The notes beneath the pieces were generated by a model, which saw only the letters and a list, made by a program, of their open reading frames with translations, did not search any database and was not told the DNA's origin. The position numbers were made by a program, and so were the translations under genes. This document shows, in pieces, positions 590 to 47,632 of a DNA stretch of 64,000 nt; position 1 is the stretch's first letter, and each line of letters begins with the position of its first letter. The DNA is taken from positions 1-64,000 of the forward strand of contig JAODTK010000189.1 of assembly GCA_026419785.1 (NCBI GenBank), written 5' to 3'. The DNA comes from Sclerodactyla briareus (Eukaryota > Echinodermata > Holothuroidea > Dendrochirotida > Sclerodactylidae).

Positions 590-830
590 AATAGGGAAAA
601 TAGGCAGCCATTTAAATGGCTCAACAAAAAGTTTCTTAGAATTCTTTTAGAAAAAATCAGGAAAAATCAAGACAATTTACTAGAGCCCTCTATAGAAACT
701 ATAGGAAATTTCTAGGGAAATTCCAAGAAAAATCATATAGGATTATTCCATAGAAACTCTAAAGAATTTAAAGAATTTCTAAGAATCTCAAATAATTTAT
801 GAAGAAAATCAATTTTAATTCTGGTATAAC
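590..830. repeat. AT-rich MITE-like inverted repeat
   Basis: Seen: a stretch rich in TTTCTTAGAATTCTTT-like words. A left arm near 631-650 and a right arm near 757-790 are roughly reverse complements of each other, and short AGAAACTATAGGAAATTTCT-type motifs lie between them. This looks like a small non-autonomous inverted-repeat element or a decayed palindromic repeat. No coding frame and no clear target-site duplication were seen. Confidence 0.35.
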
Positions 831-1737
831 ACAGGCTATACTATACCTGACCGGTTAGGGCCAAATAGTTGAATAGCTGAATACCCCCCCCCGCCACCGG
901 GGAGGTCTCGCGCTGCAGACTAACATTGATGTCAATTTTTATTCTTCATATACTGTGCATCCGGAAATGAAAAACTATGTGGTGCCAATACCATAACTAA
1001 AGCTATATAGCAATAATAGCCATAAATAAGTCCTTAGATTTGAAGGTTGGCATAATTAGCGTTATCCAATCATCTTCAAGAATAACACAAGGGAACCTAC
1101 CGGTCAGATAGTTGTGATCTCATTTTCCTGCCAAAGGGTTTTTCATGTTAAATACACATTGGTCAACATGTTAATACCAGTAATAGGCCTAACTATACAC
1201 AAAACTGCACCAAACATGGCAGCTTAAACACATATCAAACATGGTGTCTAACTTGCCTAGTGTACACTGGAAGATTTGTTAGCTATAGCTTGCACATCCA
1301 CTCTAAAAAATTTAGGCTTGAATATGAATAAATAATATACCAACAGAAACAAATCATTAATTTCCAATTGACAACCTTGAAACTATAAAGACTGGTCAAT
1401 ATACTAATGATATTCGATATCTTGAATGATAAACCAATTTAGACTGACCATGCTGACATCAGAAACACAGAGCAACTGCCACGCTGCCTTTGAATTAGGG
1501 CTGTCGAAATCACAAGTGTTCTTGGTCCGTTTGATTTGTTTAAATCTGACTAAATATATTTAAATTTACCTGTGGAAAGTTAATCCAACTGAAAATGCTA
1601 GTAAAGGAGTATAGCCTATCGAATATACCTATAAGAGCCCAAACATTTATTCACGAATAGTATTAAATGTAAAGAAACATGACGATTCAAGCTGCAGCCA
1701 CACAACGTCAGCCTATTTTACACGGCAACTGCAACTA

Positions 1738-1795
1738 TTTCTTCTTCTTCTTCTTCTTCTTCTTCTTCTTCGTCTTCTTCTTCTTCTCCGTCTTC

Positions 1796-1829
<34 letters not shown>
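1738..1829. repeat. Compound microsatellite (TTC)n then (ATT)n
   Basis: A TTC tract with two interruptions runs to about 1797 and passes directly into an uninterrupted ATT tract to 1829. It is a simple-sequence repeat with no coding meaning. Confidence 0.95.
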
Positions 1830-4679
1830 CATTTACTATTGTATTAATATGGCATTAAATGTTTAGATTCTATAGAGGTTTATAGACTTCTGACAAATGA
1901 ATAGATAGGAAACGATATAGAGTGACGTTTAATAGGAAATGTTTTGTTAGAAAATCCATAGACAACTATGAATTTATTATCTACAAAAATATGCTCGCCA
2001 TTGATAGAAAAGGACATTTTCAATAGAAGGACCTATAGAACTCTATACACTTTTATACTAACTTTTCTCCAAGGGGGATTTGAAACAATTTTTGGCGCCA
2101 TCTTGGGTTATGACATTATAGAAGCAAGTAATTACCAAGATAACTGTTTATTGAATTCTCTGCTCGAAAAAAAAAACATATGAATAGACACTTTTCCGTC
2201 CCTTGTGATACTTGGGGGAAACAAAACGGTGTGGACAACAGTAAAAAAGGCGACCATTTTGGGACGCATCTTGAATTTCAAAGTTCCACGACTGGGATTC
2301 TTTAGGAGTTTCAGTATGTTAAACAACAACACATTTTTTCATTTCGCATTGTGCAATGTGCAATGTTGTGTTCGATTCGCGGGCGCGCGACAACGCCAGC
2401 ACGTCATAGTGCGGTGCGGCCCGCTGAAAACAAAGGGTAGGGAGTGAGTCAAAGATGGCTCCAACACTGACACGCCAGCTTGGCACTATAAATTTGCCGA
2501 GATGACATTCATTGTTTTGGGATTATTATACCAAACAAAAAACTATACCTAAAAAGTTGATTTCTATCTACTCAGCACAGACCAACCCATTCTCATGGGA
2601 AAATGTGAACGATGAGAGGAATGTTACGTCCATGTGGCTGAAAATGGGTTCCCAGTAGGTTGACAAACCTCATGAAGGTCAAATTTCTTCAGTCCGAGAA
2701 AGTCATAAAAAGGTTCTCCGCTCGTGTGAGCCGGGCAAACTGTAATGTCCCCTGTGTTGAGCGCCGGGAAAAGGCAACATGTACCATGTTATCATTCGCA
2801 GTGAATATTGGAAACTGTGAAAAGATGGATATTGATTTGGCCAGTTTGGGCTGCGAACACCATGTACCCAACCCACCAAGATAGATCAGCTCATTACCGG
2901 TCGGCGGGTTCAATGCGTGGAGGCTCATATTCTTTCGCGTTAGATAAAAGGTGATCTGATGTAGAAGACTGAATTCTCGTGACCATGATAAGTCAAGAAT
3001 TGATTATTCTACCCGAGTAGAGAATTGTGAGAGATCGATGTTGAATAATTCAAGCTCGTAAAACCGAAAACAAAACCTGATGGATGAAGCTCGTACATGG
3101 CTCGGGTATTACCTATGAGTACAAGTTTCTATGGGAGGTTGAGTTTCAAAGGTCTATTAAATGTCCCTAACTGGTAAACAGGATCCAGTCGACAATGCTC
3201 AGCTTGAAAAGATTTGGTTCAGGAAAGGGAATACATGAGCCACAGTTTTCACATTTCGGCAATCATTTGAGGCCGGCCGGACAGAGTTACTATATGGCAA
3301 ATTAGCGGAGGGCCAAAGAGACTGTCGCGGGTTTAGAGACAATGGAATAATTTGTTCTGTGTCGGGTAAATAAGAACCCTCAGAAACCAGTAAGGGCACT
3401 TCGGATATGTAAGGAAGCGGACAATCTTCAATATGTGTAATTGGAGTAGCTATCTTTTATGCATCAATGGAACAAAATTCTGGGTAGGTAGATATACTTT
3501 AGGGGGCGGAAACAGGCGCCTCAATCTCCGTAGAATGGCGGGTGTGATACCACCGTGTCCAACGGCACACCTAAAAAACAAAACACATCCAAAGGGTTCG
3601 GGTTCAATCGGGGAGCAGTTATCGTATATTAATAAATACCTTAATTGGTTTCCTGCATTATGATTGGTCAGAAAGTTCATTCGAGCCAAAGTCGAAGCAC
3701 CATTCGAACCCTCTTTATTTTGCATAAAGAAAATTGAGAGAATGTATGATTATCTGGAAATCTGATTTGTTTAGCTGGTGACCAGCCATAGTTACCATGT
3801 GCATGCCAGCACACAAAGTTCACAACTTGAAAAATAATAGCGTTTGTTTTGGATAGCTGCTATGGTGATACATTGTGAAGTCACAGCTCATTCATTAGAA
3901 TGATACATCATGTCACATAGCACAGCGCGCACACTAACAACAGTCACATGTAAGCAAAATTAGCCGCTATAAAACTACGTTGTGTAGTGTACAATGCCCG
4001 CATATACACGTACTCAACCCAGCTAGCCTGGCTCACGAACATACGCGGCTATGAAACGCCATCTCTCGAAATTTTGGGCCAAACCACCACGCATACATAC
4101 GCAACTATCCTAGTGCGATGGTTTAAAATTATTATTCCGGATATCAACGATAGGTTGTGGCACGGCAAAATCACTCATTGTATCAAGTATAAGCCTTCAA
4201 AAAATACGGGTGATTGTGTGCGTGATCCCTGACCTGCGCAGGTGATACAGTTGCTCTCAACGTTACAAACATTAGGCTATACAGCTTGTCGGTTTCGAAG
4301 TGAAAACTTTGGGAAATAATGAAAAAATTCACATCATTTTATTCAGAAGAGTTACCTGTTATGTCTCAGATATCTAATGAGAGTTGTCAACGTAATTCAG
4401 TGTAACCATTGATCGGAGATAGAAAAAAAAAGGGAGGATCAAGCAATTACATAATACCCCACAGCCAGGATGATTGGAAGGGGGAGGGGGGATTGTGATA
4501 TGGGAATTGCAGAAATTCCAAATGGCTGTCTCAGAGAGCCCCACTCACCTGCAACCAAAAACCTTCCCACAAAAAACAACGATTATGTGCGTCTATTTTT
4601 TCTACCTATCGGGAGGTTACATTTTAAACAATAGGGAAATTACAAAAATACAGATGTGTTGCCTTAGGAAATCCACATC
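1830..4679. other. No recognised gene
   Basis: Frames here are under 95 codons, overlap on both strands and match no family I recognise. The longest (3450-3725 minus, 91 codons; 3433-3663 plus, 76 codons) are mutual shadows. A box-B-like word near 3594-3610 hints at a decayed tRNA-derived SINE, but there is no convincing box A. Likely intergenic or intronic. Bases 1-589 and 831-1737 also hold nothing assignable. Confidence 0.5.
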
Positions 4680-5590
4680 TCTGCCAACCATTCTTACACA
4701 GCAGGTCGTTCAGGTTAGTGCATCACATTTTTGCATACAAACCCATTTAACGACGCCTACCATCCACAACAGGTCATTCATTTATAGTAACACATCGAAT
4801 CAGAATTGGTACAACAGAATAAAGCAACTCATGCTAGGACAAAAATGAATGGTACGAGGATCAGAGGGGCAGGTGTATTATGAAATACTCAACTTATGCT
4901 AGGACTAGAAATGACCTGGCAATCCAATGTAAACAACAGGTGCAGGCATCAGCTTTGTCCATAGTGATTGCACGATGGAATCAGAATGTTACCTTAATTA
5001 AATGTGAAGCAATTAAAACAACAGGTACAACAGAATACGAACTCATGTTAGTACCAAAATAAAATGGTATAAGCATTGTGGGCAAGTGTGAATTATTACC
5101 AATTAGCCTATGTTAGGAATAGAAATTGACCTGGCAATCCAATTTAAATCAACAGGTGCAGGGCATCAGTTTCTGTCAACCATGAAGCAAAAGCTTCCAC
5201 TTTCAGAAAGGGTGAACCTTACACACGTAAGAGACCCCCATATCGCTTGTATATATTTCACATCTCGTTCCTTCATTGTCCTAAGTAACAAGGACCAACC
5301 AGTTCACCTTGCCATCGCCTTCTTCAAATAATAAAATTGCGCTTATCGTACTCATACATTACACTAGATCCACAAAATCCCATAAATCTGACATCACCCC
5401 GAGGGAGCAAGTCAGTGGGGAAAATTCCAAGTTGTTTGCTGTACAGTAATGTAAACAGTGATAACGATTTTTCGGATTCCCATTCACTAGTTATTACAAG
5501 TGAGGGCATCAGTTTTTTGCTCTAATCTAATTGCAAAATGCTTTCCAAAAGGTGACCATACAACTTAAGACCCCCATATTTATTTTGTAT
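4680..5590. repeat. Degenerate tandem repeat, ~215-bp unit
   Basis: The block around GACCTGGCAATCCAAT starts near 4913 and again near 5128, a 215-bp spacing, with matching flanks (ACAGGTGCAGGCATCAG and CTCATGCTAGGAC versions). A further partial copy of the GGGCATCAGTTT ... GACCCCCATAT segment follows near 5158-5260 and 5502-5575. Copies are clearly diverged. The open frames inside (4474-4848, 4880-5062, 5110-5331) follow the repeat and are not credible genes. Confidence 0.6.
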
Positions 5591-8485
5591 AACCATTAAC
5601 CACTGCCTACTTACTGCGACGCTACTTTGTTTGTGTATACTATATACGCTAAAATTTGGCTGGTACAGTTGGTCCCAATACCCATAGGATTTAATCTCTC
5701 AGTTGTGTGTGTGAGACTGTGAGTAAACAATAAAACTTTGACTGCCTGTTGGACATTCAGTGTAGAAATCCGTGCCAGAATGCTCATTTGAGGATTGAGG
5801 GTGGTAATCCATTATCTCTGTGTGCACTCAATCTACTGATTATCCTTTTTTTTACATAAAATAACACTCCCGATAAGCATGCAAAAAGCACACATCCAGG
5901 ATGTTACATTACTGAGAGGCAGGACGGACTACTGAGTCTTATTACCCCTTTCCATATCCCTCACTAGGAGATCACTGTGTGTGTGTAAAAGGCAGGGGAG
6001 GGTATGGGTTGGAAAGGGAGGAAAAGAAGCAAGGGTCAAGAAGCTTCTGAAAGCGTGAAGGGCACAACTTTTGTGGCATCTCGCTATTGAGCAAACAGTG
6101 AGGGTATCACCCTAAATACCCCAGCCGAGATGGATAGGGGTTTGAGTCTATTAAATATTCCCTCTTCCTCCGTCAGTTGTCTCTGGGACTATTTTGGGAA
6201 AGTGGTTGCCATGATAATCACATTTCTTTTTTCACATTGCTAGAAGTCAATACTGGAGCAACATTAATTGTCGCCCACATGTCATAATTCAGAAAGGTCT
6301 CAACATTGGATATGTCAAGTTCTACACTAAAACACTGCACAGATCTGGTCTGTTGTATTATAGATATATCGGGGACATAGATATTTGTATTATTATAATG
6401 CAGGCCAAATATATTGTTATGGCGGTGGCTGAAGGGGTGGCCATATAAGAGAGAACATTCCCAAACCCCCACCCAATGTAGAAGGAAAAATGATGATTTG
6501 AAAGCCTCGTGCAAAGTACCACTACACCACATTGCAAAGCTACCATACCGATTTGACGCTCATGTCATTAGTTTCCAAATTTTCGTGTTATCACTCCCCA
6601 AAGTTATGGGTCACAAACTTGCGTGACTTGACCTATCAGAAAAAAGGGGTTGTCTACTCTCCATGACGAAGCTACATGCCAAATTGATTTGCCTTGACTC
6701 GGTTCCGAGGTACCAAGAATATGGAACGGTTCGGGCCCTACAAACCTTCTGTGAACTGACCCATTTCATAATTAATGGGTCATATACACAGATGACAAAA
6801 GCTACATCCCAAGTATGACACTCATGTTATTTACGGTTCTGAGTTGCTTGATTACAAGATTCCTAACGATTTTGACCCTACAATCCTCCGTGACCTGGAC
6901 CCATAGAAAAAAATAGGGGTGAGGGTGGTATACTCCATGTGACGGAGGAAAATGCTATGTATGGGACACACCGAAAGGGATACCCACACATACACGCACA
7001 CAACACAACATATACAAACACACAACACACGCACACATACAGAATTAGAAAGAATACATAATCCTTTTGGAAGGAATCGAACATGAAACCGGTAATGCGC
7101 TGAAAAATATGTCTCATTTGTTCCTCTAGCATTGAACGAAAACGAAAATACCTTAAGCTACAAGGATTTGCCTCACGGAAGCCTATTTTTGTGTAACAAG
7201 CTCAATAGAGCGTGCGATGCCTAAGACCAATGCGAAAGTCGATCAAAGCAGAAACTATATTTATATTTCATTAAACAAGACTACCCCAGGCAAGCATATA
7301 ACGAAAGAAATGGTTCACAAAACGCACAACTGATACCTACAGTAACTGCCTATGGTATATTTGAGCTATAGACTGTATTATAGGGAATTAGCTAACTGTT
7401 CGGCGGAAGCTGAGCCCTCATCATAGACAAAACCTTGATTTCAGAATCAGGCAAGCAAATATCTGTATAGCGGTAATTTAATATTTGTTCGGAGTATTAC
7501 GACTCGTTAGCCGTTTGTGGAGATTCCTGGTCGTTATGAACACGTTAATGGACGGCTCCTAACCGAGCATTCTTGTTTGGGATTGGATGCTCAGACTACG
7601 ATCCTGCTGCCGAGAGGGATGACAGTCCCGTATGCTACTTGAGGTATCGAAGCAATTCTATCGCAGGAGACACTATAGAAGGTAACTTCACGTTAGGATT
7701 GCTATAGTCGTCACTCGAATTTCTGGTGGGAGGGGTAATGTTTTTGCTTTTTTTTCCGGAATCAGCTTTTTTTCATGGTCAACATGAACATGTCTTGACC
7801 CTCGCATGTGAAGAATACGAACGTCGACTGATTTTCATTCGACGCCTCTTCACCACGATGTCAGAAACCTCTCGTTGAAGATTCGACATATTTTCTATTT
7901 TTGTAAGGTGAGGATTCACGCAGGCGGGAAACGTAAAGGTCATGATACACCATTTTAAGATTTTGTAGCGTCGGACTCGACGTCGAAACGCGTCGACCTT
8001 GAGGGGGGGGGGGGGGATACACTTGGACGCCTGCCCTTAAACGTCAGTCTATCCCTTTCATGGGGTTAGACGAGGGCGTTACTGCCCCTTCTTCCAAGCG
8101 TTACGATCTTAGTCTTCCTCTACAACGTTCTACCCACCAACAACTATCTCAGGCATCTTCTTCATCCAAACCATGGACTCTTTGCACGTGACCATAGCGG
8201 CGGAGTCGTCTGCAGCGTAAGGACCCAACAATTAATGGACTTGGACGGGTGTTTTAGTCAAGCGAATCTTCAATTCTGACACTACAGATCCAACGTATCA
8301 TTGTATATATATACATACTGTATCGAGTCACTGCGTATGTAAGTAGTACAGATTCTACCCCTGGCGCAAGAGAGATTTTTCTGGAGGTTGACAATAGGGA
8401 GCACCACGTAACTCGCCAGGAATTCGGCTCGCATGATGTGCTTCTCTCACAACGTCCCTCCAGCGTCGATAGGGTAGAACAAGGT
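5591..8485. other. No recognised gene
   Basis: Mostly unique, AT-rich sequence. A CA-rich stretch at about 6985-7040 creates Val/Cys-rich minus-strand frames. A run of G lies near 8004-8016. No splice-bounded exon or protein family was found. Confidence 0.5.
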
Positions 8486-8580
8486 CACATACATACATAC
8501 ATCATACATACATACATACATACATACATCCTACCTACATACATACATACCTACATACAGGCATACTACATACAAACATG
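8486..8580. repeat. CATA/TACA microsatellite
   Basis: Interrupted ACATACAT repeats, which generate a spurious Tyr/Thr/His/Ile-rich open frame. Confidence 0.9.
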
Positions 8581-9199
8581 CATACACCTGTACGACGTCC
8601 AAACGAGGAAGTTGTGTGTACAGCTAACCGAGACATAGTGGTATGTGTACACCTAAGAAAATCGCAGACACAAACTGCAACCGTGACACCATTTTGATTA
8701 TGTACGGTCTACGAGGCGAAAAAGACTGTTCTATACCACCCACATAGGACCTATTTTTAAATGCATTTTCTACATTAATTGCGATCATCAAGGGGCATGA
8801 GAAAACGAGGACAGTCACGGTTTCAGGTGTGTCCACGGTTTTGTGGTATGTACCTACGAACGTCCTCGTTTCACACGTTACATACACTGAAATACTGCAT
8901 ATTATTTCCTCCGCTCTGCAAAGAACAATCTTTGCAAAAATCGCATCATGTAGTCAATGACCAAGAGCACTACTATGGGATCGTACGATGGTTTAAGATT
9001 CCAAAGCCATGAATGACCAATGAAGATTCCCTAAAGGAACGTGGGAGAGACATCATGACCAGGTTTGTCCTTTTGCACAGAGGACACACTTCAGGCAAAA
9101 TGTGAACGTGGAATAAAGCCAATTATAATAATAATAACAAAAAACAATATCTAGTGCCTAATGGCGTTTTATCATGTCGATGACCGATCAAAGTGCTGT
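8581..9199. other. No recognised gene
   Basis: Opposite-strand frames of 77 and 87 codons overlap here. Neither resembles a known protein. Confidence 0.4.
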
Positions 9200-9432
9200 A
9201 CAGAGATCACCCAAATCACAGCGAAACAGGCATTCTCTCGACAATTCTGGAGATGCTGCAGGGTTGGGCGCAGAATGTACTCGGTTATCTCCACAGGTCC
9301 CCAATTATAGCCTGGGTGGGGTGAGGCAATGGAGAACCTTGCCCAAGGGTACACCGGAAAGGTCTGAGCAGCAATGGGATCGAACCACAACCATGCTCAC
9401 AGTCCAAAGCTCTACGACCAAGCTAATCCCAA
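9200..9432 (-). mobile_element. tRNA-derived SINE
   Basis: On the minus strand a polymerase III promoter can be read. A box-A-like word TAGCTTGGTCGTAGAG lies at about 9409-9424, and box B GGTTCGATCCC at about 9374-9388, with tRNA-like spacing between. The body that follows (9295-9345, minus: GGGCAAGG ... CCATTGCCTCACCCCACCCAGG ... TAATTGGGGACCTG) is the conserved central block seen in many marine-animal SINEs, as I recall them. The 120-codon frame on the plus strand at 9174-9536 is a shadow of this element. Confidence 0.75.
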
Positions 9433-12099
9433 GCCGAGAGACGGGAAGCGAACACCCACCGATGGCTGTGGCTGCGGCCAAACTTTCTCTCTATTCAAGA
9501 ACATTGACCGTGCTCTTCTTAAAGCCTGATAGATAATATGATTTGCAATTCTCCACAATACTGACCTATTACTTTGGAGAATAAAAAAGAAATATCAGCA
9601 TCAATCATGGACATTCGTGGTTACTTCATTTTATTTCTACTAAAACGGCTACAAAAACAACAATGCCGGTGAGGTGGTCCACAAAGTTATAGCATTACCG
9701 CCTGGCATAGAGTGATTCAAGATGAAGAAATTAGCTCAAACCTTGTTGGCTGCTTACCAAGGCACCAATTACCAATGTGCTATGTGTTAAAGGAGCCTGT
9801 AAGCTCTCAAAAAGATGATTTTACTATTCATGCACTTTGTTACTACATTATCTGACCTACTTAAAAACACGCCTGCAGGGCTCTCATAAAAATGATTTGT
9901 CTATTCTGCAACTTGTTACACCTTATTACTGACCTACTCAAAAAACTTAGTAGGACAAGAACATCCACTTGCTCTTTGCAGGAAGAGATGAATCTAGCAA
10001 GATTTCAAGTCTGATACAAATGTCCCAACTCTTATGTCATTGTTGTCTATATCAAGACACTACTGAACATGTGAAATAAGCACCACTCACAAATTTGAGA
10101 AAAAGGATAATGCTTCGCAGAGATACATACTGCAATGCACACAATGGCCTCTTGTTCTCTTTTTAAGGCCAAAGGTCATGTAAATATGACTCCGATTAAT
10201 ATTGTAACTTGGGATCAGTACATAAATGTAATTCAAACTGCAATTCGAATTTCAGCCTAAATGCGTGTAAAAATGAGATGCGGAGGTTACTGCACAACAG
10301 GCCCGTTGCGGGGGACCGAGGAAAGTGCAAACACACACTTTTGACAACCTTTGAAAAAAGAGCAGTTACACGCACCGTCATAATGCGCCTTTTTAATAAC
10401 CTTGACGCGAAATAGGCGGTCATGATTTGAATTTTGCAGGGGTGGCGGCAGAGTGGATGGGAGGGGGAAGGGAATTCCGTTGGAGAAATAGCCTGTGCCC
10501 CCAATCCCCCCGTCCGGGGAGCCGTTGCCATCTAGTGTAAGGAAATGCCTAGTGCTTACATGGCCATCCAAAGCACTTCATAAGCATTACCTCTGCTCAT
10601 GATAATTTTTTCACGCCACCATCTATATAGTGCACATCTCTGCCGTTCACACCCGGAACAGGTGCCGCCCACAAACAGCACAAAACATGTGCAAGTTACC
10701 TGGAGGGCTCTCACTTATTGGGTGAGAGTGAAAGCCAATCGAGTTAAAACACCTTGCTGAAGGGGTGGCAACAAGGACTCGTACACATAATCACCAGGAT
10801 TCGAGACTTCGGACGCTTTAACGATTATGGGCAACCTTCAAGTCTCAGTTCAAAGTTGTCCCAGGGGTCAAGGAACAGTGTGTCAAGTTTAATCCATCAC
10901 CAAAGACTAACAATTTTGGGACTGTAAAGTTGTTGTATCATCATTTTTTTAAAAAGTAATAAGATTTTTTAAAGTCATGATGTGGCTTCATCATGTTGCC
11001 ATTAACAAACCGGCATGAAGCCTGAAAGGAATGTCTCACAGTAAACAAACGTTATTTGACTCTTCTTCCCTTAATGACAGTATGTACGATAAGCAAGTCG
11101 GAGTACAGATGGGCCTTGACACAATATAGCCAGTTGGTGAATACTTCGACAAACCCAGCTAACGCTACACTGTGTGGTTTCCAATTCGGTTAAAATATTA
11201 AGAAGTTGTGATAACAAATGATTTTGCCAGAGAATTGGGGGAACATTTTAGAATAAATATTATGGTGAACAACTAATATGTCAGGCAAATTGAGGAACAA
11301 CAGAAATGAGCAGCAAATAGTTACATCCCTGATACCGAATCAATGCCTCTTGCTTAATTGCTGGTGACATTAACGACAGAGTGGATCACTCCATTCGTTG
11401 GGGCCAGCTGAAGATTAGGGATTTACCACACGAGCAAAAATAACATCATGGTGAGTTACCCGTGGATTGCTGATATTGTGTTTTCTCACCAAATAGCGGC
11501 AGTAAATACAGAACGTGAAAAGACATGTTCTTGACACAGAAGCCTAATTTGAAGCCATTTTTTGTTGTCAGCTGAATGAATTGTAAGGCAAAACTCTCAC
11601 AGTAAGTATAGCAGCAGTACAGTTGGGACTTATACGATGACCTTAGCAGCAGTTCACGAGCATGCACACAATTCAAACTCGCTTATAGGAGAATGCAAAT
11701 AGTATACACAGAGCCCCACACCAGTGGGCGAGGACTGAGTCCCTATTTCAAGGACTGGTAATTCAGACTCGCGACCTCAATGCTCAGACCTGCCTGAAGG
11801 ACTCGGCATGAGAATTTCAGTGGAACTTACTACGAAACAATGGCTCATTTTGCCCATATCATTTTAATTGCATTGCAATTAACATATCAAAACTACTGTA
11901 GCAATGACCATCTACACCTATTTAATATACTATTAATAGCACATATTCTAGATCCAAAATAACATGTTTGAAGTAACTTACTTGTGGATGGGTGCAGACG
12001 CATCTCCCAATATTTAAAGTCTAGATAATTTACCGATAATGGCAATCAATATTGTCAAATTATATATTACTCTTTCGAAAGGATTGTTGAAATTTTTTG
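9433..12099. other. No recognised gene
   Basis: Frames of 68-111 codons at 10.2-10.6 kb overlap on both strands and lack recognisable domains. The stretch 11.70-11.82 kb (GAGCCCCACACCAGTGGGCG onward) may be a decayed interspersed repeat. Nothing else can be supported. Confidence 0.4.
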
Positions 12100-13660
12100 C
12101 CGACAGTTGTCCGTTCCATTAGCAAGAAGGTATTGTTCCGGGTGATTAGAGGAGAGCAAATGTGTCCCTCCAATTTTCAAAGAAAGGCAACCCGGTCTCT
12201 TCTTGTAAGTTACAGGCCAGTGAGTCTTACTAGGTTGTCTGCAAGGTGTAGAACCACCACCATATCGTGATCATATTGTCGATTTTTTCGATGGTATAGT
12301 CTAAATCCGGGGTCTATTCGCATGGTTTCAGCCAGAAAAGCGTTCGTGTTCTCTTGGAACTAAATCTCTGTAGTATTCATTCATTTTGAAGATATTACTA
12401 GTGCAGGTGACACTGGCTAGTGCTGTTGATTATTAATTTTGCCTGAGACTGGTCCAAAAAGCTTTGTGAAAAGGTTCCTCATGCGTGTTTTTCTTGCTTA
12501 TTTAATTGGAAAGTTTTGGCATTTAATGGAATGGCCTTGAGTGGATTCGTCAGGTGCTCCTCAATATGGAACATTGAGTTGTCATCAATGGGGTTCGTTT
12601 CTTCCTGGGCATAAAGGCACCAGTGGTGTTCCCCAAGGATCGGTCTTGGGCCTGTGTCTGGCGTATATGACGATTCTGTAAGATCAGTGCATTCCAGAAG
12701 TTAAGAGGAAGTGCACAGACGATACCAAGTTGTTGTAGTGGAGTTGCTTCGAACGATGATGTTGCAATTGTCCACACGGGATCTGATATAATCTCCAAAT
12801 GGTTTCCCGATTATCAAATGGTGTTCAATCCCGATAAGTGCAAAGTTATGCATGTTGGTTTCAAAATCGCAACGTTCTTTCAAGTTGAATGGGCAAGCTA
12901 TTCAGAATATTGCATATCATATCAGGAATCATATTCGATGAATTCAGAAAGGATCTCGGTGTTCATTTTTTTTTTGACCCCTCTAAGCAGTGTGCGGAAG
13001 CTGCGAGGAAAGGTAACTGGATTCTGGGCTTGGTTGATTAGGCGTCACTCCAGTTCCTTTTTTTTTTCGGGATAAAGAATTGTTTGTCAGGTTGTTATTT
13101 AGAAGCTGGTGGACCTCACAGGGGTTATCTGTCCAAGTATGGAACCATGATTTCTCGAAAGACAAACAGGTGATGAAAACCTTCAGCGGAGGGCCTAGAT
13201 TAATCAAATCTCTTAGAGGATTTTACCTACAAAGAGAGATTAAGGCGTCCTCGGTTTACTTCGATGGAACTGAGAGAAGTCGTGGTGATTCGATTCAGGT
13301 TTTCAAAAATTGTTTCATGGTTTCGAGGGCATTCCTCTCCCTATTTCTTTGAGTTTTCGCAAAGTTATTGTCCTTAGTCATTGTCCTCGAGCTTCGTGGT
13401 CAACGCTGTAAGATTTGACATTCGGAAATATTTCTTCTCCCATAGAGTTATTTATGGTGGAATAGCCTTCCTGAAGATTTTGTGGAAGATTGGTGAATTC
13501 ATTCAAGAACAGTCTTGATTATTTTTCAAGACTTGTGGGCGGAGCATGTTTGAGCATCTGGGTTGTTCTCTCTCTTGGGATGTTGTGGCTGCTTCGGGGT
13601 CTCTCCTGCAGTTTGGTGTCCTTCCTGACGGCCCTTCTTCACTAACCTAAACTAATTTAT
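12100..13660 (+). mobile_element. Degenerate non-LTR retrotransposon (reverse transcriptase)
   Basis: A decayed LINE reverse transcriptase on the + strand, broken across all three frames. Motifs appear in the right order: SYRPVSLT near 12208, SGVPQGSVLG near 12616, a DDTKL block near 12720 (TDDTKLL, the catalytic Asp pair plus context), then MVFNPDKCKVMHVG near 12818. The C-terminal end follows: WNSLPEDFVEDW near 13452 and NSFKNSLDYFSRL near 13497. This order and wording fits the Jockey/CR1/Rex superfamily of non-LTR elements. There is no endonuclease domain and no long frame, so it is a 5'-truncated dead copy. Its 3' segment matches 23.15-23.33 kb, marking the same family. An AT-rich tail ends near 13.70 kb. 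Confidence 0.85.
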
Positions 13661-13789
13661 CTTTATTATTTATGTATTTTATTCATTCATTCATTCTCTC
13701 CCGAAAATCACCGTCGATTAGTGTTCACTCGTTATCATAAGCCCTCTGGAAGACTATTTAAAAGCGCGTGCGTCCATTCCTTGGTAACC

Positions 13790-14170
13790 AACCACGTACT
13801 ATATGATTCCCAGTTCGGCTTCAGAGGAGGCATAGCACCAGCCAATGCCGCTTCTTGAGAAGTCCATTACATTCAGACTCTCCCTGATAACGGTCAGGAA
13901 TGGTCCGGGGTTAATATCCTCTTCATCTAAACAACTTTCGATACTGTTAACCATGGAATTTTACTTGAAAATCAGTACGGTATGGTATACGCGGAATGTT
14001 CTAGATATTGTTCGTAGTTATTTATCAATCAACAAAGCAAGTCATGTACTGTTGTAGATAAATTCCATTCTTCCTGTTATGGATGTCACCACGGGTGTAC
14101 CCCAGGGATCCGTCCTAGTCTATTATGTTTTCATGTAAATATGTCACTGATATATCCACGTTTGATTCCC
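13790..14170 (+). mobile_element. Second degenerate LINE reverse-transcriptase fragment
   Basis: A separate RT fragment directly after the first. SQFGFRGG appears near 13809, then FDTVNHGILLENQYGM near 13935 (the catalytic Asp strand, usually KAFDTVNH), then RSYLSIN near 14010 and TTGVPQGSVL near 14090. The spacing is that of a reverse transcriptase palm domain, but stops and shifts interrupt it. The catalytic YADD block is not visible downstream. It is probably a different subfamily from the 12.1-13.66 kb copy, because that copy carries its own GVPQGS segment. Confidence 0.8.
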
Positions 14171-25900: not shown

Positions 25901-28388
25901 GCGCGTGCAATGACCGGACTAATTTGAGTTGTATTGCTGGCGCAGTCAGTTGATCAGCAAATGGTGAAAAACGTATTTTGTGATCGGTTGATTTGATAAG
26001 TGGATATATTCGAATATACAGGTGCGTAAATTCGATTCAATATGCGTATACATCGATTATATGGAATATATTCGAATTAATAGGTAGATCAATTTTAATA
26101 TATATGTGTATATATTCTTGATCGCTGATTAGTTGTGATACATGGATATTTTCCAATATATGTGCATGATTCGATTTTATACGTGCAGCTATTCGAATAT
26201 TTACGTGTATAAAATATGGGGGAAATGTCCAGCACGGCTTTCCATGCACGTGCATATATGTGTACATATACCGCGTAGAATCCTATGTAGTGCGAAAGCT
26301 GGCTCAATTGGATTGTTTGAGTGAGGCTCGTAGTATCCTGAGTAAGTGTGTAAACTGGCGGAAATGAAGTGCGTGTGTGCATGCCTCGAATGTTCCTATG
26401 CAATTGGGTGGGCTGGCTGGATTGAAGTTCGTGTGCATGCGTAAGCCTCGTAGGATCCTGTGTGTGTAGAGGCTCATTCACACGATACGATTCTTTCGCC
26501 AGACTTTCGTCGTGCCCGACTTTTTTGCCCGACTTTCGTCGCAATGTGTAAATGTTCTTTTCCTTGTCATCAAAAAAGTCGAAATCGCAAGAGATTTTTT
26601 TTTTTCAATCGTGCCCGATCTTGTAGTAACGTGTGAATGTACTTTTGCTGGACTGTTTGTCACACGCGACAATATTTTGGCTTGTCGGGCATAGAGCAAC
26701 ATGGTGAACTTTGTCGGCCGATTTGTTTGTCGCGCGTGCAGACCGGACTAATTTGAGTTGTATTGCTGGCGCAGTCAGTTGATCAGCAAATGGTGAAAAA
26801 CGTATTTTGTGATCGGTTGATTTGATAAGTGGATATATTCGAATATACAGGTGCGTAAATTCGATTCAATATGCGTATACATTGGATTTATATGGAAATA
26901 TTTCGAATTAATAGGTAGATCAATTTTAATATATATGTGTATATATTCTTGATCGCTGATTAGTTGTGATACATGGATATTTTCCAATATATGTGCATGA
27001 TTCGATTTTATACGTGCAGCTATTCGAATATTTACGTGTATAAAATATGGGGGAAATGTCCAGCACGGCTTTCCATGCACGTGCATATATGTGTACATAT
27101 ACCGCGTAGAATCCTATGTAGTGCGAAAGCTGGCTCAATTGGATTGTTTGAGTGAGGCTCGTAGTATCCTGAGTAAGTGTGTAAACTGGCGGAAATGAAG
27201 TGCGTGTGTGCATGCCTCGAATGTTCCTATGCAATTGGGTGGGCTGGCTGGATTGAAGTTCGTGTGCATGCGTAAGCCTCGTAGGATCCTGTGTGTGTAG
27301 AGGCTCATTCACACGATACGATTCTTTCGCCAGACTTTCGTCGTGCCCGACTTTTCTGCCCGACTTTCGTCGCAATGTGTAAATGTTCTTTTCCTTGTCA
27401 TCAAAAAAGTCGAAATCGCAAGAGATTTTTTTTTCAAATCGTGCCCGATCTTGTAGTAACGTGTGAATGTACTTTTGCTGGACTGTTTGTCACACGCGAC
27501 AATATTTTGGCTTGTCGGGCATAGAGCAACATGGTGAACTTTGTCGGCCGATTTGTTTGTCGCGCGTGCAATGAACCTTGACTAATTTGAGTTGTATTGC
27601 TGGCGCAGTCAGTTGATCAGCAAATGGTGAAAAACGTATTTTGTGATCGGTTGATTTTTGATACTGATATATTCGATATACAGGTGCGTAATTCGATTCA
27701 ATATGCGTATACATCGATTATATGGAATATATTCGAATTAATAGGTAGATCAATTTTAATATATATGTGTATATATTCTTGATCGCTGATTAGTTGTGAT
27801 ACATGGATATTTTCCAATATATGTGCATGATTCGATTTTATACGTGCAGCTATTCGAATATTTACGTGTATAAAATATGGGGGAAATGTCCAGCACGGCT
27901 TTCCATGCACGTGCATATATGTGTACATATACCGCGTAGAATCCTATGTAGTTGCGAAGCTGGCTCAATTGGATTGTTTGAGTGAGGCTCGTAGTATCCT
28001 GAGTAAGTGTGTAAACTGGCGGAAATGAAGTGCGTGTGTGCATGCCTCGAATGTTCCTATGCAATTGGGTGGGCTGGCTGGATTGAAGTTCGTGTGCATG
28101 CGTAAGCCTCGTAGGATCCTGTGTGTGTAGAGGCTCATTCACACGATACGATTCTTTCGCCAGACTTTCGTCGTGCCCGACTTTTCTGCCCGACTTTCGT
28201 CGCAATGTGTAAATGTTCTTTTCCTTGTCATCAAAAAAGTCGAAATCGCAAGAGATTTTTTTTTCAAATCGTGCCCGATCTTGTAGTAACGTGTGAATGT
28301 ACTTTTGCTGGACTGTTTGTCACACGCGACAATATTTTGGCTTGTCGGGCATAGAGCAACATGGTGAACTTTGTCGGCCGATTTGTTT
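25901..28388. repeat. 830-bp unit in three tandem copies
   Basis: Copies begin at GCGCGTGCA at about 25901, 26732 and 27562 (spacings 831 and 830 bp) and end near 28388. They are nearly identical apart from single-base indels and a small divergent patch at 27650-27690. Each unit is itself built of repeats: an AT-rich 5' part of TATATTCGAATATA words, a middle part with recurring GGCTCGTAGTATCCTGAG / GCCTCGTAGGATCCTGTG words, and a 3' part with repeated CGTGCCCGACTTT / GTGTGAATGTACTTTTGC words. A 149-codon minus frame recurs in each copy but simply follows the duplication. The structure is a higher-order satellite-like array. Confidence 0.9.
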
Positions 28389-28939
28389 AGGAACGGGAGC
28401 GAATTCGCTGTCCATACAACCCACACAATGATAGCGAGCATTTTCAGTGCAGTAAGATAAAAAAAATGATTGAAAATACTTGAATGGGAATTATTTGAGA
28501 TTATGGTATTTCTAATGTTTGTTTCGAATAATGTAGAATTGAAGTGAATGACAATGCTATTCGTTTTGAGCGATAGATTCTTGTTTGGCTAGCGCTTCGT
28601 ATGTACATGCACATAGCCTAGGGTTATACCACAGGCACATATTCTTGAAGAGGACAGGCCTCTAGGCTTATCGCTACCAAATTAATCTCCCGACAAATAT
28701 GGGCCTGACGATGTGAGTAGGCTAAACATGCAGAACGATTTTCAATCAAAATATCACGACTAGAACTAGCCCAATTATTACAATATTTAGTCGGATATCC
28801 ATCAGAAATAATCTCACTATTATCCTCATAATAATCATCACTGTCATCATCATTGTGGAATATTGCTAATATATATATAATATATATATATATATGGTAA
28901 CCACTCGGTACCCAACTCGCACCCCTCTCTATTTTGCCT
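28389..28939. other. No recognised gene; short TA tract
   Basis: A TATATA tract at about 28869-28897. The minus-strand 107-codon frame across it has no recognised motif. Confidence 0.4.
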
Positions 28940-40251: not shown

Positions 40252-40797
40252 TCAGCGACTTCAAGTGGAAACATCGCATAGCAGCTATAATGAACCCAGA
40301 TGTTTTCCAAAATTTCAGTCGATATAATCCTCACGAAATGTTCCATATACGACTTAGATTGCACTAGAGAGCTTGTGACAACCCCAGAGCCTCCAGGTCC
40401 CACGCTTTCGGAATTCCGCGCCCCGTGCTCTTGAATCTCTGCAGCAGCCAGGGACCCCTTCCTTCCATATACCCAGGCCTCATCATTAGGCCGCTGGTCT
40501 GTCAGAGCAAAACACGGTATAGCAATCACGAACGATACGCCAGAGTTCAGTTGACGTAGAGACAGGCGCTGCGAATTGCCCTCGACGGTAAGAGGGATCA
40601 TATCATTCCACTGATCAACTATCGCTCTACCTGCTCAGGTAGGTGCCTGGAGCCTGGAAAATTCCGCTCGACGAGTGAATCGTCAACTTATGTACCTGAC
40701 AAGAAATGAAATTGAAGTCTCTTGCTTTTCGTTCCGGAAGCTGAAATGTACGCTCCCCGCTAAATCTGCAACGTGATATTTCTCCATTTATCCTCAG

Positions 40798-41030
40798 TGA
40801 ACACGCCCCCGAGCCGGCCGCAGTGCCCGGATAATATGAACCTCGAAAATGATTCCAGGACTGCCCTATTCACACCTCCCACTTGTTCAGATGGTGAAGA
40901 AGTACAATTGACAGCGACATGTGTTCCGGGACCGGGAAGCAATTTCCCAGAGGGTACAACAACGATCACCTGTACCTGTGTCGAAGCGGGGAATCTTCAA
41001 AGCAGCTGCAGTTCAATGTTAATGTACAAG
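40798..41030 (+). CDS. HYR exon 1 of transmembrane receptor (one-base deletion)
   Basis: This encodes a hyalin-repeat domain: NTPPSRPQCPDNMNLENDS at the N-terminus (the PP-x(3)-CP signature), then TCVPGPGSNFPEGTTTITCT and a Cys-rich end. It is extracellular and Ig-like in the known family, used in adhesion. The acceptor is TTTATCCTCAG ending at 40797. The donor is CAAG/GTAAGG at 41030. The exon is 233 bp against 234 in the other two copies because one C is missing in AGCTGCAGTTC near 41009 (AGCTGCCAGTTC in the sisters). That shifts the last seven codons and would break the join to the next exon. Against copies 2 and 3 it has Thr for Pro and Glu for Asp, plus several silent changes. The missing base may be a sequencing error. 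Confidence 0.8.
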
Positions 41031-41636
41031 GTAAGGTTCTGATTTTGAGTGTGGTGGCAAAACATAAATTTCTTGTATCACCATATATTTCAGCGACTTC
41101 AAGTGGAAACATCGCATAGCAGCTATAATGAACCCAGATGTTTTCCAAAATTTCAGTCGATATAATCCTCACGAAATGTTCCATATACGACTTAGATTGC
41201 ACTAGAGAGCTTGTGACAACCCCAGAGCCTCCAGGTCCCACGCTTTCGGGATTCCGCGCCCCGTGCTCTTGAATCTCTGCAGCAGCCAGGGACCCCTTCC
41301 TTCCATATACCCAGGCCTCATCATTAGGCCGCTGGTCTGTCAGAGCAAAACACGGTATAAGCAATCACGAACGATACGCCAGAGTTCAGTTGACGTAGAG
41401 ACAGGCGCTGCGAATTGCCCTCGACGGTAAGAGGGATCATATCATTCCACTGATCAACTATTGCTCTACCTGCTCAGGTAGGTGCCTGAAGCCTGGAAAA
41501 TTCCGCTCGACGAGTGAATCGTCAACTTATGTACCTGACAAGAAATGAAATTGAAGTCTCTTGCTTTTCGTTCCGGAAGCTGAAATGTACGCTCCCCGCT
41601 AAATCTGCAACGTGATATTTCTCCATTTATCCTCAG

Positions 41637-41870
41637 TGAACACGCCCCCGAGCCGACCGCAGTGCCCGGATAATATGAACCTCGAAAATGATTCCAGGAC
41701 TGCCCTATTCACACCTCCCACTTGTTCAGATGGTGAAGAAGTTCAATTGACAGCGACATGTGTTCCGGGACCGGGAAGCAATTTCCCAGAGGGTCCAACA
41801 ACGATCACTTGTACCTGTGTCGATGCGGGGAATCTTCAAAGCAGCTGCCAGTTCAATGTTAATGTACAAG
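41637..41870 (+). CDS. HYR exon 2 of transmembrane receptor
   Basis: An intact 234-bp, 78-codon-equivalent HYR exon in phase 1-1. The acceptor is TTTATCCTCAG ending at 41636 and the donor CAAG/GTGAGG at 41870. Key positions: PP-x-RPQCP at the start, TPPTCSDGEEV in the middle, TCVPGPGSNFPEG, then TITCTC and SSCQFNVNVQ as the final strand. Six Cys are visible, compared with the fewer conserved Cys usual in HYR units, so extra disulphides are likely. The phase-1 join to the next exon creates a Val codon (G plus TG). The coding sequence is identical to copy 3, so selection, recent duplication or gene conversion has kept them the same. Confidence 0.85.
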
Positions 41871-42473
41871 GTGAGGTTCTGATTTTGAGTGTGGTGGCAA
41901 AACATAAATTTCTTGTATCACCATATATTTCAGCGACTTCAAGTGGAACATCGCATAGCAGCTATAATGAACCCAGATGTTTTCCAAAATTTCAGTCGAT
42001 ATAATCCTCACGAAATGTTCCATATACGACTTAGATTGCACTAGAGAGCTTGTGACAACCCCAGAGCCTCCAGGTCCCACGCTTTCGGGATTCCGCGCCC
42101 GTGCTCTTGAATCTCTGCAGCAGCCAGGGACCCCTTCCTTCCATATACTCAGGCCTCATCATTAGGCCGCTGGTCTGTCAGAGCAAAACACGGTATAAGC
42201 AATCACGAACGATACGCCAGAGTTCAGTTGACGTAGAGACAGGCGCTGCGAATTGTCCTCGACGGTAAGAGGGATCATATCATTCCACTGATCAACTATT
42301 GCTCTACCTGCTCAGGTAGGTGCCTGAAGCCTGGAAAATTCCGCTCGACGAGTGAATCGTCAACTTATGTACCTGACAAGAAATGAAGTTGAAGTCTCTT
42401 GCTTTTCGTTCCGGAAGCTGAAATGTACGCTCCCCGCTAAATCTGCAACGTGATATTCTCCATTCATCCTCAG

Positions 42474-42707
42474 TGAACACGCCCCCGAGCCGACCGCAGT
42501 GCCCGGATAATATGAACCTCGAAAATGATTCCAGGACTGCCCTATTCACACCTCCCACTTGTTCAGATGGTGAAGAAGTTCAATTGACAGCGACATGTGT
42601 TCCGGGACCGGGAAGCAATTTCCCAGAGGGTCCAACAACGATCACTTGTACCTGTGTCGATGCGGGGAATCTTCAAAGCAGCTGCCAGTTCAATGTTAAT
42701 GTACAAG
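42474..42707 (+). CDS. HYR exon 3 of transmembrane receptor
   Basis: An intact 234-bp HYR exon, identical in coding sequence to copy 2 even though the introns have small differences. The acceptor is CATTCATCCTCAG ending at 42473 and the donor CAAG/GTAAGG at 42707. Its phase-1 donor G plus the AA that begins the exon at 43566 forms a Glu codon, joining NVNVQ to E-SSNPFVWIGP. It is therefore the membrane-proximal HYR domain. The intron that follows is 858 bp and leaves the repeat unit at about 42757. Confidence 0.85.
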
Positions 42708-43565
42708 GTAAGGTTCTGATTTTGAGTGTGGTGGCAAAACATAAATTTCTTGTATCACATTGCTTCGAAAGTTTCATTTACGTTCGGGGCACTACTACCG
42801 GTGTACATTCTATGTGACTGGGAGAATCATTCTAAACAGAGATTGTATTTACTTAGATTGAACCAATGTATTTTGTGAATATGTTGAAACTTACTTTACA
42901 GACTATATTTATCGCAAATCAGGTCTACAAATGGGCCTGAACCGGAACTTTATCCCCAACAAATTTGGACATTTCCACTGCGGAAGAAGGTCAATAATTT
43001 TGAGTTTGTAACAAGAGAAACTCTATTTTTTCAATTACAAAATCAACAAAATATGAAGCGACTCCAATATTTGGCTGATTTTCTTCATCAGATTCGAATT
43101 TTAGAAAATTGCTGAAAAAGGCGAATGCGCATGTTTTGTGACATTTCATCTTCGTATGAAATCAATAATTGAGGTCCGCTATTCCGTGATACTTTCGAAA
43201 AGACGAAAGCACGCACGCTTGCTCTTACCCCAACACCAATGGGTATCTCATCTTTGCGGATGCTTGTCGTTCGACGTAATCATTACATAACATCGCTGCT
43301 ATGGCGAATTGCAAACTGACAATCAAACGATAACACATCTGGTCCTTCTTCGCCTCTGTGATCATTTAATGCAAATGAGGTAAAATGTAATCAGACATAT
43401 AAAATTTAATCGGACATATTGCAAGCTGTAAATTGCAGTAATTCGAGTAGCGGCACGTTGTACTGGAATTGCTCAGTCAGTACCATAACACGACGGATGC
43501 AACAAGAACATTAAAGTGTTTGTCCAGTCCATGTACTCTTGTATAAATTGTGATTCCTCCTTCAG

Positions 43566-43975
43566 AATCCTCCAATCCATTCGTGTGGATAGGTCCGTCA
43601 GTCGCATTCGCTGTACTTTCGCTTATTACTGCGATATTGGTAACCATTTGTTGCACGAGATGCCGGAAGAAGAAGAAGACTGTGGATGATGGACACACCG
43701 GTCCAGTTATCAGCAGATGATCATCAAGACAGTGGACCGAGTGGGCGCAGAGATACAGGCGAAGGTACGGTAAACCCGTTGAGTTCTATTGAACAGCCAA
43801 TTGAGCTCAACGAACTGCCTCCAAACTACGAGAGACGCATCCACACCGCCCGAGCTACGAGAGAAGAATCAATCCGGACGATGACTCAGAGTACTACTCT
43901 ATTGATGAGTCTTCAACAACGGAATATCATTATATAGAGGCGTCCAATGATGATGCATTGAATGATAGCATGTGA
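43566..43975 (+). CDS. Transmembrane and ITAM-like cytoplasmic tail exon of HYR receptor
   Basis: The acceptor TTCCTCCTTCAG ends at 43565 (phase 1). The start is SSNPFVWIGPSVAFAVLSLI followed by TAILVTICC, a single membrane helix. CTRCRKKKK follows, a cytoplasmic stop-transfer with possible palmitoylated Cys, so the HYR domains face outside (type I). The frame then closes at a TGA (43718-43720). The next frame is open (HQDSGPSGRRDTGEG, IELNELPPNYERRI), and from about 43853 the original frame resumes: SYERRINPDDDSEYYSIDES, STTEYHYIEA, ending at TGA 43973-43975. Two opposite one-base shifts would explain this, since helix and tail share one frame. The tail has DSEYYSI-x7-YHYI, an exact ITAM-type pattern at 43883-43936. 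An unrecognised short intron is the alternative. Confidence 0.7.
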
Positions 43976-45049
43976 AGAAAAAAAAACTTCGACTCCTTTT
44001 CCCCTGCTCCTCACCACGATGTTCAATTATTGTCACTGTCAATCGGATAAACAATCAAGGGCGGCGATTTGTGTTGGCGGTTGGGGGGGGACGGACAATA
44101 CGAATACCCTCTAAGCGGAGGCGCCACCACAGGTTGGCGTACACGATTTTTTTCGTTTGACAGACCCCGAGATTGCAGAGAACGGCACTTCCCATGCCTT
44201 ATGGGACAGTAAGCAGCCTCCTTAAAATGGATAACAAATTTTTATTTCAGGAAAGGTTTTCCAAAAACTTATCGCCTTAGGGATTAATTTCAAAGTTTTG
44301 CTTTGGGTGCTGTGACATTCTGAAATACGATGCGAGTGAGGTTACGGCCATGAAAGAAGCAAGAAAATGGGAATTGGCAACAACCATTACGTTACGAGAT
44401 TTTGCAGGATCCAGTTTGACCAACGATCGATCGACATTGCACTGACCCCTCTCTGACCTATCACTCATATAGGCTTAGCTTTTTTTACTCAAAGATTACA
44501 GCCCTCATTTTTATCTTCTTTGCGGATCACAGGCGCATGGGAGAGACACTTCTGATTTTGGGCAGACTCGTGGCCAAGGAGTATAATAATCAGAGTACAA
44601 CCGCACTTTGTCTTTGGTCACTGCTAGTTTGCAATTTTGCAAATTGGCAACATTTGATGACGTCATATCGACCAAATCTAAAGAAAACGCTAAGGAATTA
44701 CACACTTTTCTTTTTCTCTTATAATTGGTAGATATGACGTCATAAAAGGTTGCCAGTTTGCAAAAATTACTAAATTATATGAAATGTGAGGAAGACCCAA
44801 TCTTCTCAACCGAACATGCTATAAACCTGGAACAAAGTGATACTTGAATGATTTATCATTCCCTCTTCAACATTATAACACCAAGTATTAATTCGGCGGC
44901 TAGACCTGCCTTTAAAACACGGTTGCTGCTGGATATGTCGGATACAGTGAAAATAACGAAATAGCGCAATAGCAGTCGGGCTCAAATATTGGGGGGGGGG
45001 CAGAATGCATTGCATCCCCCTCCCCCTCCAACCAAAATTTGGGGGGACG
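43976..45049. other. No recognised gene
   Basis: 3' flank of the HYR receptor. G runs near 44085 and 44989-45001. Frames up to 99 codons on the minus strand (44806-45105) overlap simple sequence. I see no clear AATAAA close to the receptor stop codon. Confidence 0.4.
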
Positions 45050-45835
45050 TTAATACATTTTAGCGATGTTTCTAAAATAGCTGAGGAGTGCATTTTCGTT
45101 TGCAATTTTCAAAATGTTTTTCCAAGAACGAATGAAAATGAATCATAATATGTATATATACAATATACATGTTTTCCAATACTATTCACAGACTTCACAA
45201 CTCGGGGTTTTAGTGGGTTGAAATATTGATAAAGGTGAAAGGAAAAGTATCACTGCTTTTTGTTTGGAATGATTCAAATGAATATACTGAATTTGCTCTC
45301 CTCTGTAACATTTAGGAATAGAATAGGTGTATTGTAGAGCAACTTTGGTGGGACGGTAGGACTGTTTTTTTTGTTAAAAGGTGACATTTCCCTTTATTTT
45401 CCTTTTAACAGTACGGGGTCATGCTTTCTTTCCATACATTTACCATGGTACGTTACAATGCCAAATGAACATTGCAACGAACATTATCTATTATAATTCA
45501 TTTCTGGCTTTTAATCTTCTTTTTTCGATCCTTGTCCTTGCCCTGTACTCAAGCGTGAGATCGAAGGAGTCGAGCACGGAAACACACGGATCGCGAACTG
45601 TTTCCTTGTTCGCAAGCTGCTCACACCACCGTTCGACAAGTTGTCCCGTGCTTGAGAAAAATCTGAACATTGGGCAATGTTGTTATTGTATATTAATGAT
45701 GATGATTATGGGGGAAATCCCTCAACAATAAGCGGCATACATGCACACTTGTCAGATGAATTTCCAACGGGACATCCTGTACAGTCCCAGTGTAACTCTA
45801 GGACAGTATGTGTAATTTACCATAGAAATGAACGC

Positions 45836-46140
45836 AGCATGTTCGAAGAATAGTTTGAGAACGAGTCCATAGAGCCACGTCCCGGATAAACAACAATTGT
45901 TTTCTCAGGTTCATTCAGACCAACCTGAGTGTTTATATGAATTAACATATCCAGGCCTGCCTTCAAAGTTCGGTGGTATTTGCCACGATGTTTATTTTTG
46001 TCACTGTCTATCGGATTAACAATATACAGTTCTCGAATCGGTATCATGATGTTTTACACATATAACCTCCACCTTCCAACGATTTGAATTCATACTAAAA
46101 TTTCCAATGACGATCGATTGCTAATTCTATATGTCATTGT
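45836..46140 (-). pseudogene. Frame-broken copy of minus-strand Ig-like frame
   Basis: The counterpart, in repeat copy 1, of the frame at 46649-46837. IDSDKNKHRGKYH is preserved, while GATTGCGGAACGTATTTG of copy 2 reads GATTCGAGAACTGTATATTG here, destroying the D-C-G-T-Y motif. The next 40 codons (GLDMLIHINTQVGLNEPEKT) are open and match the shifted frame of copy 2. It is either decayed or mis-sequenced. Confidence 0.25.
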
Positions 46141-46837: not shown

Positions 46838-47146
46838 GTGTTGATGTAATCTAGAATAGCAATGCATTTTAACGATGCTTCTAAAATGTGTAGCGGAGGA
46901 GAGCATTTCGTTTGGCAACGAATGAAAATGAATTATTATATGTAAATATTCACTATACCTGTTTTCCATACTATTCGCAGAATTCACAGCGGGGATTTAG
47001 TGGGTTATATTAATAATGAAGGTGAAAAGGAAAATTATCACTGCTAATTGTCGCACAGATTTCAAATGAATATGCTGAATTTGCTTTCCTCTATAACATT
47101 TAGGAATAGAATAAGTGTATTGTAGAGCAACATTTGGTGGACGTGG

Positions 47147-47632
47147 TATTTGATTTGATTTGATGTACGGGTTCAGGAAGCCAATTGACTCAGTGACCCA
47201 ACGAATTTTGATCGTGGATGAGCACCGGTGACAACTCGCCTTCTCTTCTCGACTAGTGCCAGATGATATCGAGGGCAGGAGTGACACCAATCCCGGCTCC
47301 CGGGACCGCAATTTTACGTCCCCATACGACGGACGATCAGCTGAAACCCAGGAACTGACCACTTTCTCAGAAACTGGAGGAGCGGAGATGTTCGACGCCG
47401 ACTGCTCACAGCCGACCGACGAGACCTATTGCAAGTGCCCCCGAAACAACCCCTCGAAATTACCAAGCCCATTGCTCAACAGCAGGACAGGAACCTAAGA
47501 CCAGGAACACGCCAGTCGAACTTCAAATACAGCCACCTTCTGGGAAAACGCCCGGTGCTGATCGGCTGGAATTCGAACCCGGGACCTGTTGCATGCAAAG
47601 CGACATGATACCACCCTACCATTCTCCCGCCC
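47147..47632 (-). mobile_element. tRNA-Ala-like SINE inserted in repeat copy 3
   Basis: On the minus strand the element starts GGGCGGGAGAATGGTAGGGT (from 47632), with box A inside. Next come GCTTTGCATGC, as in the anticodon arm of tRNA-Ala(UGC), and box B GGGTTCGAATTCC at about 47569-47582. A ~400-bp body follows, and a (TCAAA)n-type tail (plus strand TTTGATTTGATTTGATG at 47148-47164). Copies 1 and 3 of the surrounding repeat match on both sides (GTAGAGCAAC before, GGTGACATTTCCC after), so this is a clean insertion. The 80-codon + frame at 47256-47498 is inside it. Confidence 0.85.

Follow-up and report, generated by a model that had tools for sequence, protein, structure and literature searches.

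Three exons for HYR domains lie on the + strand of the window, the whole stretch of 64,000 nucleotides that was analysed, at 40798-41030 (copy 1, 233 nt), 41637-41870 (copy 2, 234 nt) and 42474-42707 (copy 3, 234 nt). The sequence-only reading had proposed three HYR exons here, and they are borne out at those positions, since all three end in a consensus acceptor and a consensus donor in splice scoring and each is, by Pfam or by identity, a predicted HYR domain (PF02494). Copy 3 reached 40 bits (E 5.1e-10) and copy 1 reached 29.9 bits (E 7.4e-7), above the gathering score of 21.7; scored inside a stretch of 5000 residues, copy 1 gave 21.1 bits, slightly below that cut-off. Copies 2 and 3 encode identical proteins and show 0 differences over 234 nt. 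One HYR exon, copy 3, was modelled as mainly beta strands (mean pLDDT 83.3, pTM 0.68), a fairly confident prediction. Its matches to PDB folds were weak and by title mostly other extracellular beta domains; none was found in PDB at E<=0.001, and the best was the dystroglycan juxtamembrane domain (E 3.5e-3). The single PDB match by sequence (E 0.067) was disregarded.

Relatives of the ectodomain were retrieved with a 371-aa query, which gave 15 proteins at E<=10 among 5027 candidates. Each carries Pfam HYR, and one is named from a Planctomycetota bacterium. They cover 23-62% of the query, of which the first 63% is HYR. C42, G47, C59, F73 and V77, together with G79, are invariant in an alignment of 14 rows, of which 13 come from the 15 relatives found and one is the exon of the window. 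The locus resembles PF02494 proteins in its tandem HYR copies, and none of the 15 relatives is known to have its transmembrane (TM) helix and tail.

The three HYR exons, rather than being three diverged domains, are near-identical copies of one intron-plus-exon unit of about 839 bp, at 40253-41090 (part of an intron and HYR exon 1), 41091-41930 and 41931-42758 on the + strand, the likeness of the third to units 1 and 2 stopping at about 42758. By hand count on the alignment of about 830 columns, any two copies are separated by 5-12 substitutions and by 2-5 indels of a single base; the three together vary by substitution in 13 columns and have 5 internal single-base indels, this count leaving out one indel at the ragged end of the slice. 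The HYR part is a set of three recent copies of one symmetric exon unit. With a length of 234 nt and phase 1-1, exons such as copies 2 and 3 can be added in frame, and their copy number could vary. Copy 1 carries 5 substitutions per 233 nt relative to copies 2 and 3, of which 3 are synonymous by codon reading, while the remainder of its unit (about 600 bases) has 4 substitutions relative to copy 2, i.e., fewer than the exon.

Copy 1 is one base short near 41009. The loss would shift the frame of everything 3' of this exon, so that HYR1-HYR2-HYR3 are not in frame as assembled. Accordingly, the proposal of three HYR exons in frame followed by a TM exon stands for copies 2 and 3 and the TM exon, which are in phase, but not for copy 1, which is frameshifted. 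All 5 internal indels among the units are shorter homopolymer runs, in a sequence where 45% of bases lie in runs of at least 2; copy 3 has three of them, none in its exon, and copy 1 has two, one of which is in the exon. Such homopolymer indels fit the appearance of long-read consensus errors, though natural slippage also yields them. A second triplicated array of units of about 830 bp is present at 25912-28400. Its three copies differ by 35 substitutions and 5 indel events (one of these two bases long, another where the slice ends), and it has no Pfam domain at cut-off on the + strand. Indels are therefore not special to the HYR gene, an observation that fits either sequencing error or mutation.

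Downstream of the third HYR exon, the first part of the TM exon (43566-43717, + strand) reads ESSNP, a TM helix at about 43580-43654 (judged by reading the sequence rather than by a TM predictor), the basic stop-transfer TRCRKKKK and TVDDGHTGPVISR, and is followed by TGA at 43718-43720. The TM helix and basic stop-transfer had been anticipated and are found in an exon of compatible phase starting at 43566. The junctions between HYR exons 2 and 3 and between HYR exon 3 and the TM exon are of phase 1; reading on across the second of them gives ESSNPFVWIGPSVAFAVLSLITAILVTICCTRCRKKKKTVDDGHTGPVISR and then the TGA at 43718. Donors of the three HYR exons scored 7.0-7.3 and the four acceptors 2.5-3.8, with matrices of consensus values. 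The single helix and its basic stop-transfer are in frame with the HYR ectodomain, as in a type I membrane protein, and the combination of HYR domains with a single-pass TM helix is solid at the sequence level.

Against Pfam, the TM exon gave two sub-threshold matches, TMEM154 (3.2e-5) and DAG1 (0.016; 15.1 against a cut-off of 23.3). In protein searches of a database that may lack animal proteins, none of 82 candidates for the 216-aa read-through and none of 62 for the TM-plus-tail region had E<=10, and tblastn within the window found no second copy of the TM helix or tail. No signal-peptide exon was found near the HYR exons in a scan of 12000-40780, nor were upstream exons; the scan returned one candidate at 12889, 28 kb away, and its reverse-strand control 0.

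The remainder of the window was scanned with Pfam, with stops as X, in three frames each for 14001-59002 on the + strand and 31001-61002 on the - strand, and in one frame for 1-14000 on the + strand. Apart from HYR and the TMEM154-like TM stretch, six matches below cut-offs (E 5.3e-4 to 0.087) were listed, namely HCV_NS5a_1b, zf-CDGSH, CUTL, Yme1-like_N, ECR1_N and MAP17, all taken as chance; the MAP17 stretch (- strand, 58.6-58.7 kb) was dropped because of a stop inside it. Rfam gave no family at gathering score anywhere in the window. ARAGORN called a tRNA-Ala(tgc) at 47557-47625 on the - strand, which has no Rfam support and may be a tRNA-derived repeat. In addition, an 83-nt direct repeat is present at 45273-45355 and 47061-47143, its copies 90% identical and 1788 bases apart.

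Farther 3', DSEYYSIDESSTTEYHYI at 43883-43936 on the + strand matches (D/E)xxYxx(L/I)-x6-8-Yxx(L/I) in full, with the spacer DESSTTE; it contains SEYYSI and TEYHYI. The claim that DSEYYSI-x7-YHYI satisfies the whole ITAM pattern, including the acid at -3, holds for the string, the consensus being the one given in the sequence-only reading. When the 41-residue tail is shuffled, the pattern turns up in 0.22% of cases; for a 104-residue composite tail, the figure is 0.18%. Over six frames of the window, there is 1 match in 2202 open stretches of at least 20 residues, against a mean of 0.53 in 40 shuffled windows. A looser tyrosine pair, without the acid, is matched 37 times in the window, where 10.25 matches are expected; by hand count, one TA-rich stretch at 29.35-29.49 kb holds 19 of the 37. 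Because it is placed 3' of the TM exon and ends 36 nt before a stop codon, the motif is better than a random match; alone, it is not strong evidence.

DSEYYSI and the TM helix share a frame number, but in-frame stops at 43718, 43790 and 43802 lie between them. Splicing was considered as a way around these stops and rejected: nine GT-AG introns (donors at 43640-43717, length at least 21 nt) could link the TM exon to the motif, and the best summed score was -6.5, against about 10 for the acceptor-donor pairs of the HYR exons themselves. With stops in frame and no credible intron, a HYR-TM-ITAM protein is not encoded as assembled, and the motif is not in a translated tail of the TM protein. The proposal of a motif-bearing tail continuous with the TM helix is contradicted on this point, and across 43710-43847 it is another frame that is open.

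The plain reading of the DNA is that the short tail is correct, translation stopping at TGA 43718 after ...GHTGPVISR and the ITAM-like string being untranslated 3' sequence. This is improbable in our judgement; it agrees with the lack of a usable intron, whereas a long alternative open frame and a tail-like repeat past the stop speak against it. The other frame is open for 97 codons, from 43644 to 43934 (chance about 0.004 from base composition, judged post hoc), and reads as a polar tail with LPPNYERR. Within it, the putative middle of the cytoplasmic tail (43710-43847, + strand) is SADDHQDSGPSGRRDTGEGTVNPLSSIEQPIELNELPPNYERRIHT, with a PPxY. The putative C-terminal tail, again in the TM frame, is PSYERRINPDDDSEYYSIDESSTTEYHYIEASNDDALNDSM (43850-43975, + strand), with its stop TGA at 43973-43975. 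A degenerate PSYERR follows LPPNYERR within 43815-43867, giving one PPxY there, a possible site for a WW-domain ligase.

Across the second frame change, a degenerate repeat is seen, with PNYERRIH at 43821 (the other frame) and PSYERRIN at 43850 (the frame of the motif), spaced 29 nt apart and alike in 18 of 24 bases. Read in its own frame, each copy keeps 6 of 8 residues; read in either of the remaining two, it keeps 3 of 7. In random mutation trials, at least 6 of 8 residues were kept in 4.3%, and one shuffle in 60 produced a local match of at least 18 of 24; the stretch compared is short, and its choice was post hoc. The spacing fits an in-frame duplication of 30 nt minus one base. A single frame change, after which the tail would stay in the other frame until the stop at 43935 (...PPNYERRIHTARATREES...NIII) and never include the motif, is very improbable, for although that frame is open from 43644 to 43934, the PSYERRIN copy and the frame of the acidic motif would then be coincidence. 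One HYR-TM-tail protein would need two single-base frame changes in the tail, which is plausible on this indirect support.

The likeliest model, held tentatively and at somewhat less than even confidence, is that the motif belongs to the same protein as the HYR domains and TM helix, its frame being broken by single-base indels. The real gene would then have one frame running through TM - RCRKKKK - SADDHQDSG...LPPNYERR - PSYERRINPDDDSEYYSI-x7-YHYI - stop, and the indels that break the tail in the assembly would probably be sequencing errors. The same breaks could be real mutations in HYR1 and the tail of a pseudogene or decaying paralogue that makes no functional receptor, which we consider rather unlikely. 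Three frame breaks (one in HYR1, two in the tail) fall within about 1.1 kb of coding sequence near the 3' end, HYR exon 1 has diverged from its twins by 5 substitutions, and no AATAAA or ATTAAA occurs in 43976-46000, a polyadenylation hexamer being absent over 2 kb where the window mean is 0.8 per kb; all three would suit such decay. The missing hexamer, like the lack of a nearby signal-peptide exon, also weighs against a complete gene. Against decay, HYR exons 2 and 3 are identical and open, the splice sites are intact, and the HYR1 indel shares its homopolymer setting with the 4 indels outside exons.

If the tail is translated, its tyrosines fit several consensuses. SEYYSI corresponds to the loose ITIM form SxYxxI. 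TEYHYI is exactly an ITSM, and both are YxxPhi; PMC8211107 gives ITSM as TxYxxV/I and ITIM as I/V/LxYxxL/V. An activating ITAM is therefore not singled out. The pair may be inhibitory ITIM/ITSM or YxxPhi endocytic signals, with the PPxY serving ubiquitin-driven turnover, an alternative that is on the unlikely side yet substantial and whose probability overlaps with those of the other alternatives. The ITIM-then-ITSM arrangement appears in 0.04% of shuffles of the 41-residue tail and 0.12% of those of the composite tail, at least as rare as the ITAM. Moreover, ITIM-like motifs are carried by an LRR receptor of amphioxus that, in a human cell line, inhibits signalling by the T-cell receptor (PMC8211107). 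On the other hand, the 7 residues between the two YxxI and the acid at -3 match an ITAM, and SEYYSI (S at -2, I at +3) misses the strict ITIM as worded in that source. Compared with PD-1/BbLcLRR-type receptors, the tail tyrosines here likewise fit an ITSM and a loose ITIM, but they are 11 residues apart, an ITAM-like spacing, and the ectodomain is unlike.

Dystroglycan (DAG1) carries a PPxY in its tail, as the putative tail here does. Its matches to this locus, in the Pfam value of the TM part and the fold of the HYR model, are all weak. Draper of the fly has an ectodomain of the EGF/EMI type, not HYR. It is alike in being a receptor with a tail ITAM, which acts via Src42A and the Syk-family kinase Shark, Draper being phosphorylated by Src42A and recruiting Shark (PMC5138034); it differs in that, at this locus, no open frame links the motif to the TM helix. 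According to PMC10253181, invertebrates possess a single Syk-like gene beside HTK16/SHARK, and Syk and HTK16 are both listed in the egg transcriptome of a sea star (PMC11593052). An echinoderm host could thus have the signalling machinery.

On the favoured reading of one HYR-TM-tail protein, the locus may hold the 3' part of an animal gene whose product is a type I membrane protein: tandem HYR domains face outwards, one TM helix crosses the membrane, and the cytoplasmic tail, about 100 residues long, contains tyrosines. We infer that this tail is translated and that signalling might proceed as follows. The HYR domains would bind ligand or matrix; a Src-type kinase would phosphorylate the paired tyrosines in their acidic context; the phosphotyrosines would dock tandem-SH2 proteins, either a Syk-like kinase or, if the pair is ITIM/ITSM, an SH2 phosphatase; and the PPxY could recruit a WW-domain ubiquitin ligase, leading to turnover. 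The proposal of an adhesion or recognition receptor signalling by tyrosines retains its HYR and TM part, on Pfam, exon phases and the fold model; its tail is contradicted as assembled, and the ITAM is one of several fits. That a HYR ectodomain of variable copy number signals via its own cytoplasmic ITAM in an invertebrate with a Syk/Shark-type kinase is unlikely, a minority reading set against ITIM/ITSM, sorting signals and a pseudogene. The sequence-only reading knew of no described HYR-ITAM receptor, and this agrees with the partial literature searched, where no paper contained both HYR and ITAM as whole words, or the term HYR domain together with either immunoreceptor tyrosine-based or sea cucumber, and where the HYR plus own-ITAM architecture was not found; the main text of PMC12716839, a paper indexed under HYR, does not contain the term.

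The HYR-TM-paired-tyrosine gene is a promising lead, not an established new immune receptor, and it carries the caution that a base lost from or added to an assembly can conceal a motif or create a spurious one. Near-identical, frame-neutral copies of the HYR exon would offer a way to vary receptor length. If the reading is true, the protein would be an invertebrate receptor candidate for Syk-type kinases, and a self-contained HYR-ITAM receptor would join a matrix or adhesion module to the logic by which immune receptors of vertebrates signal.
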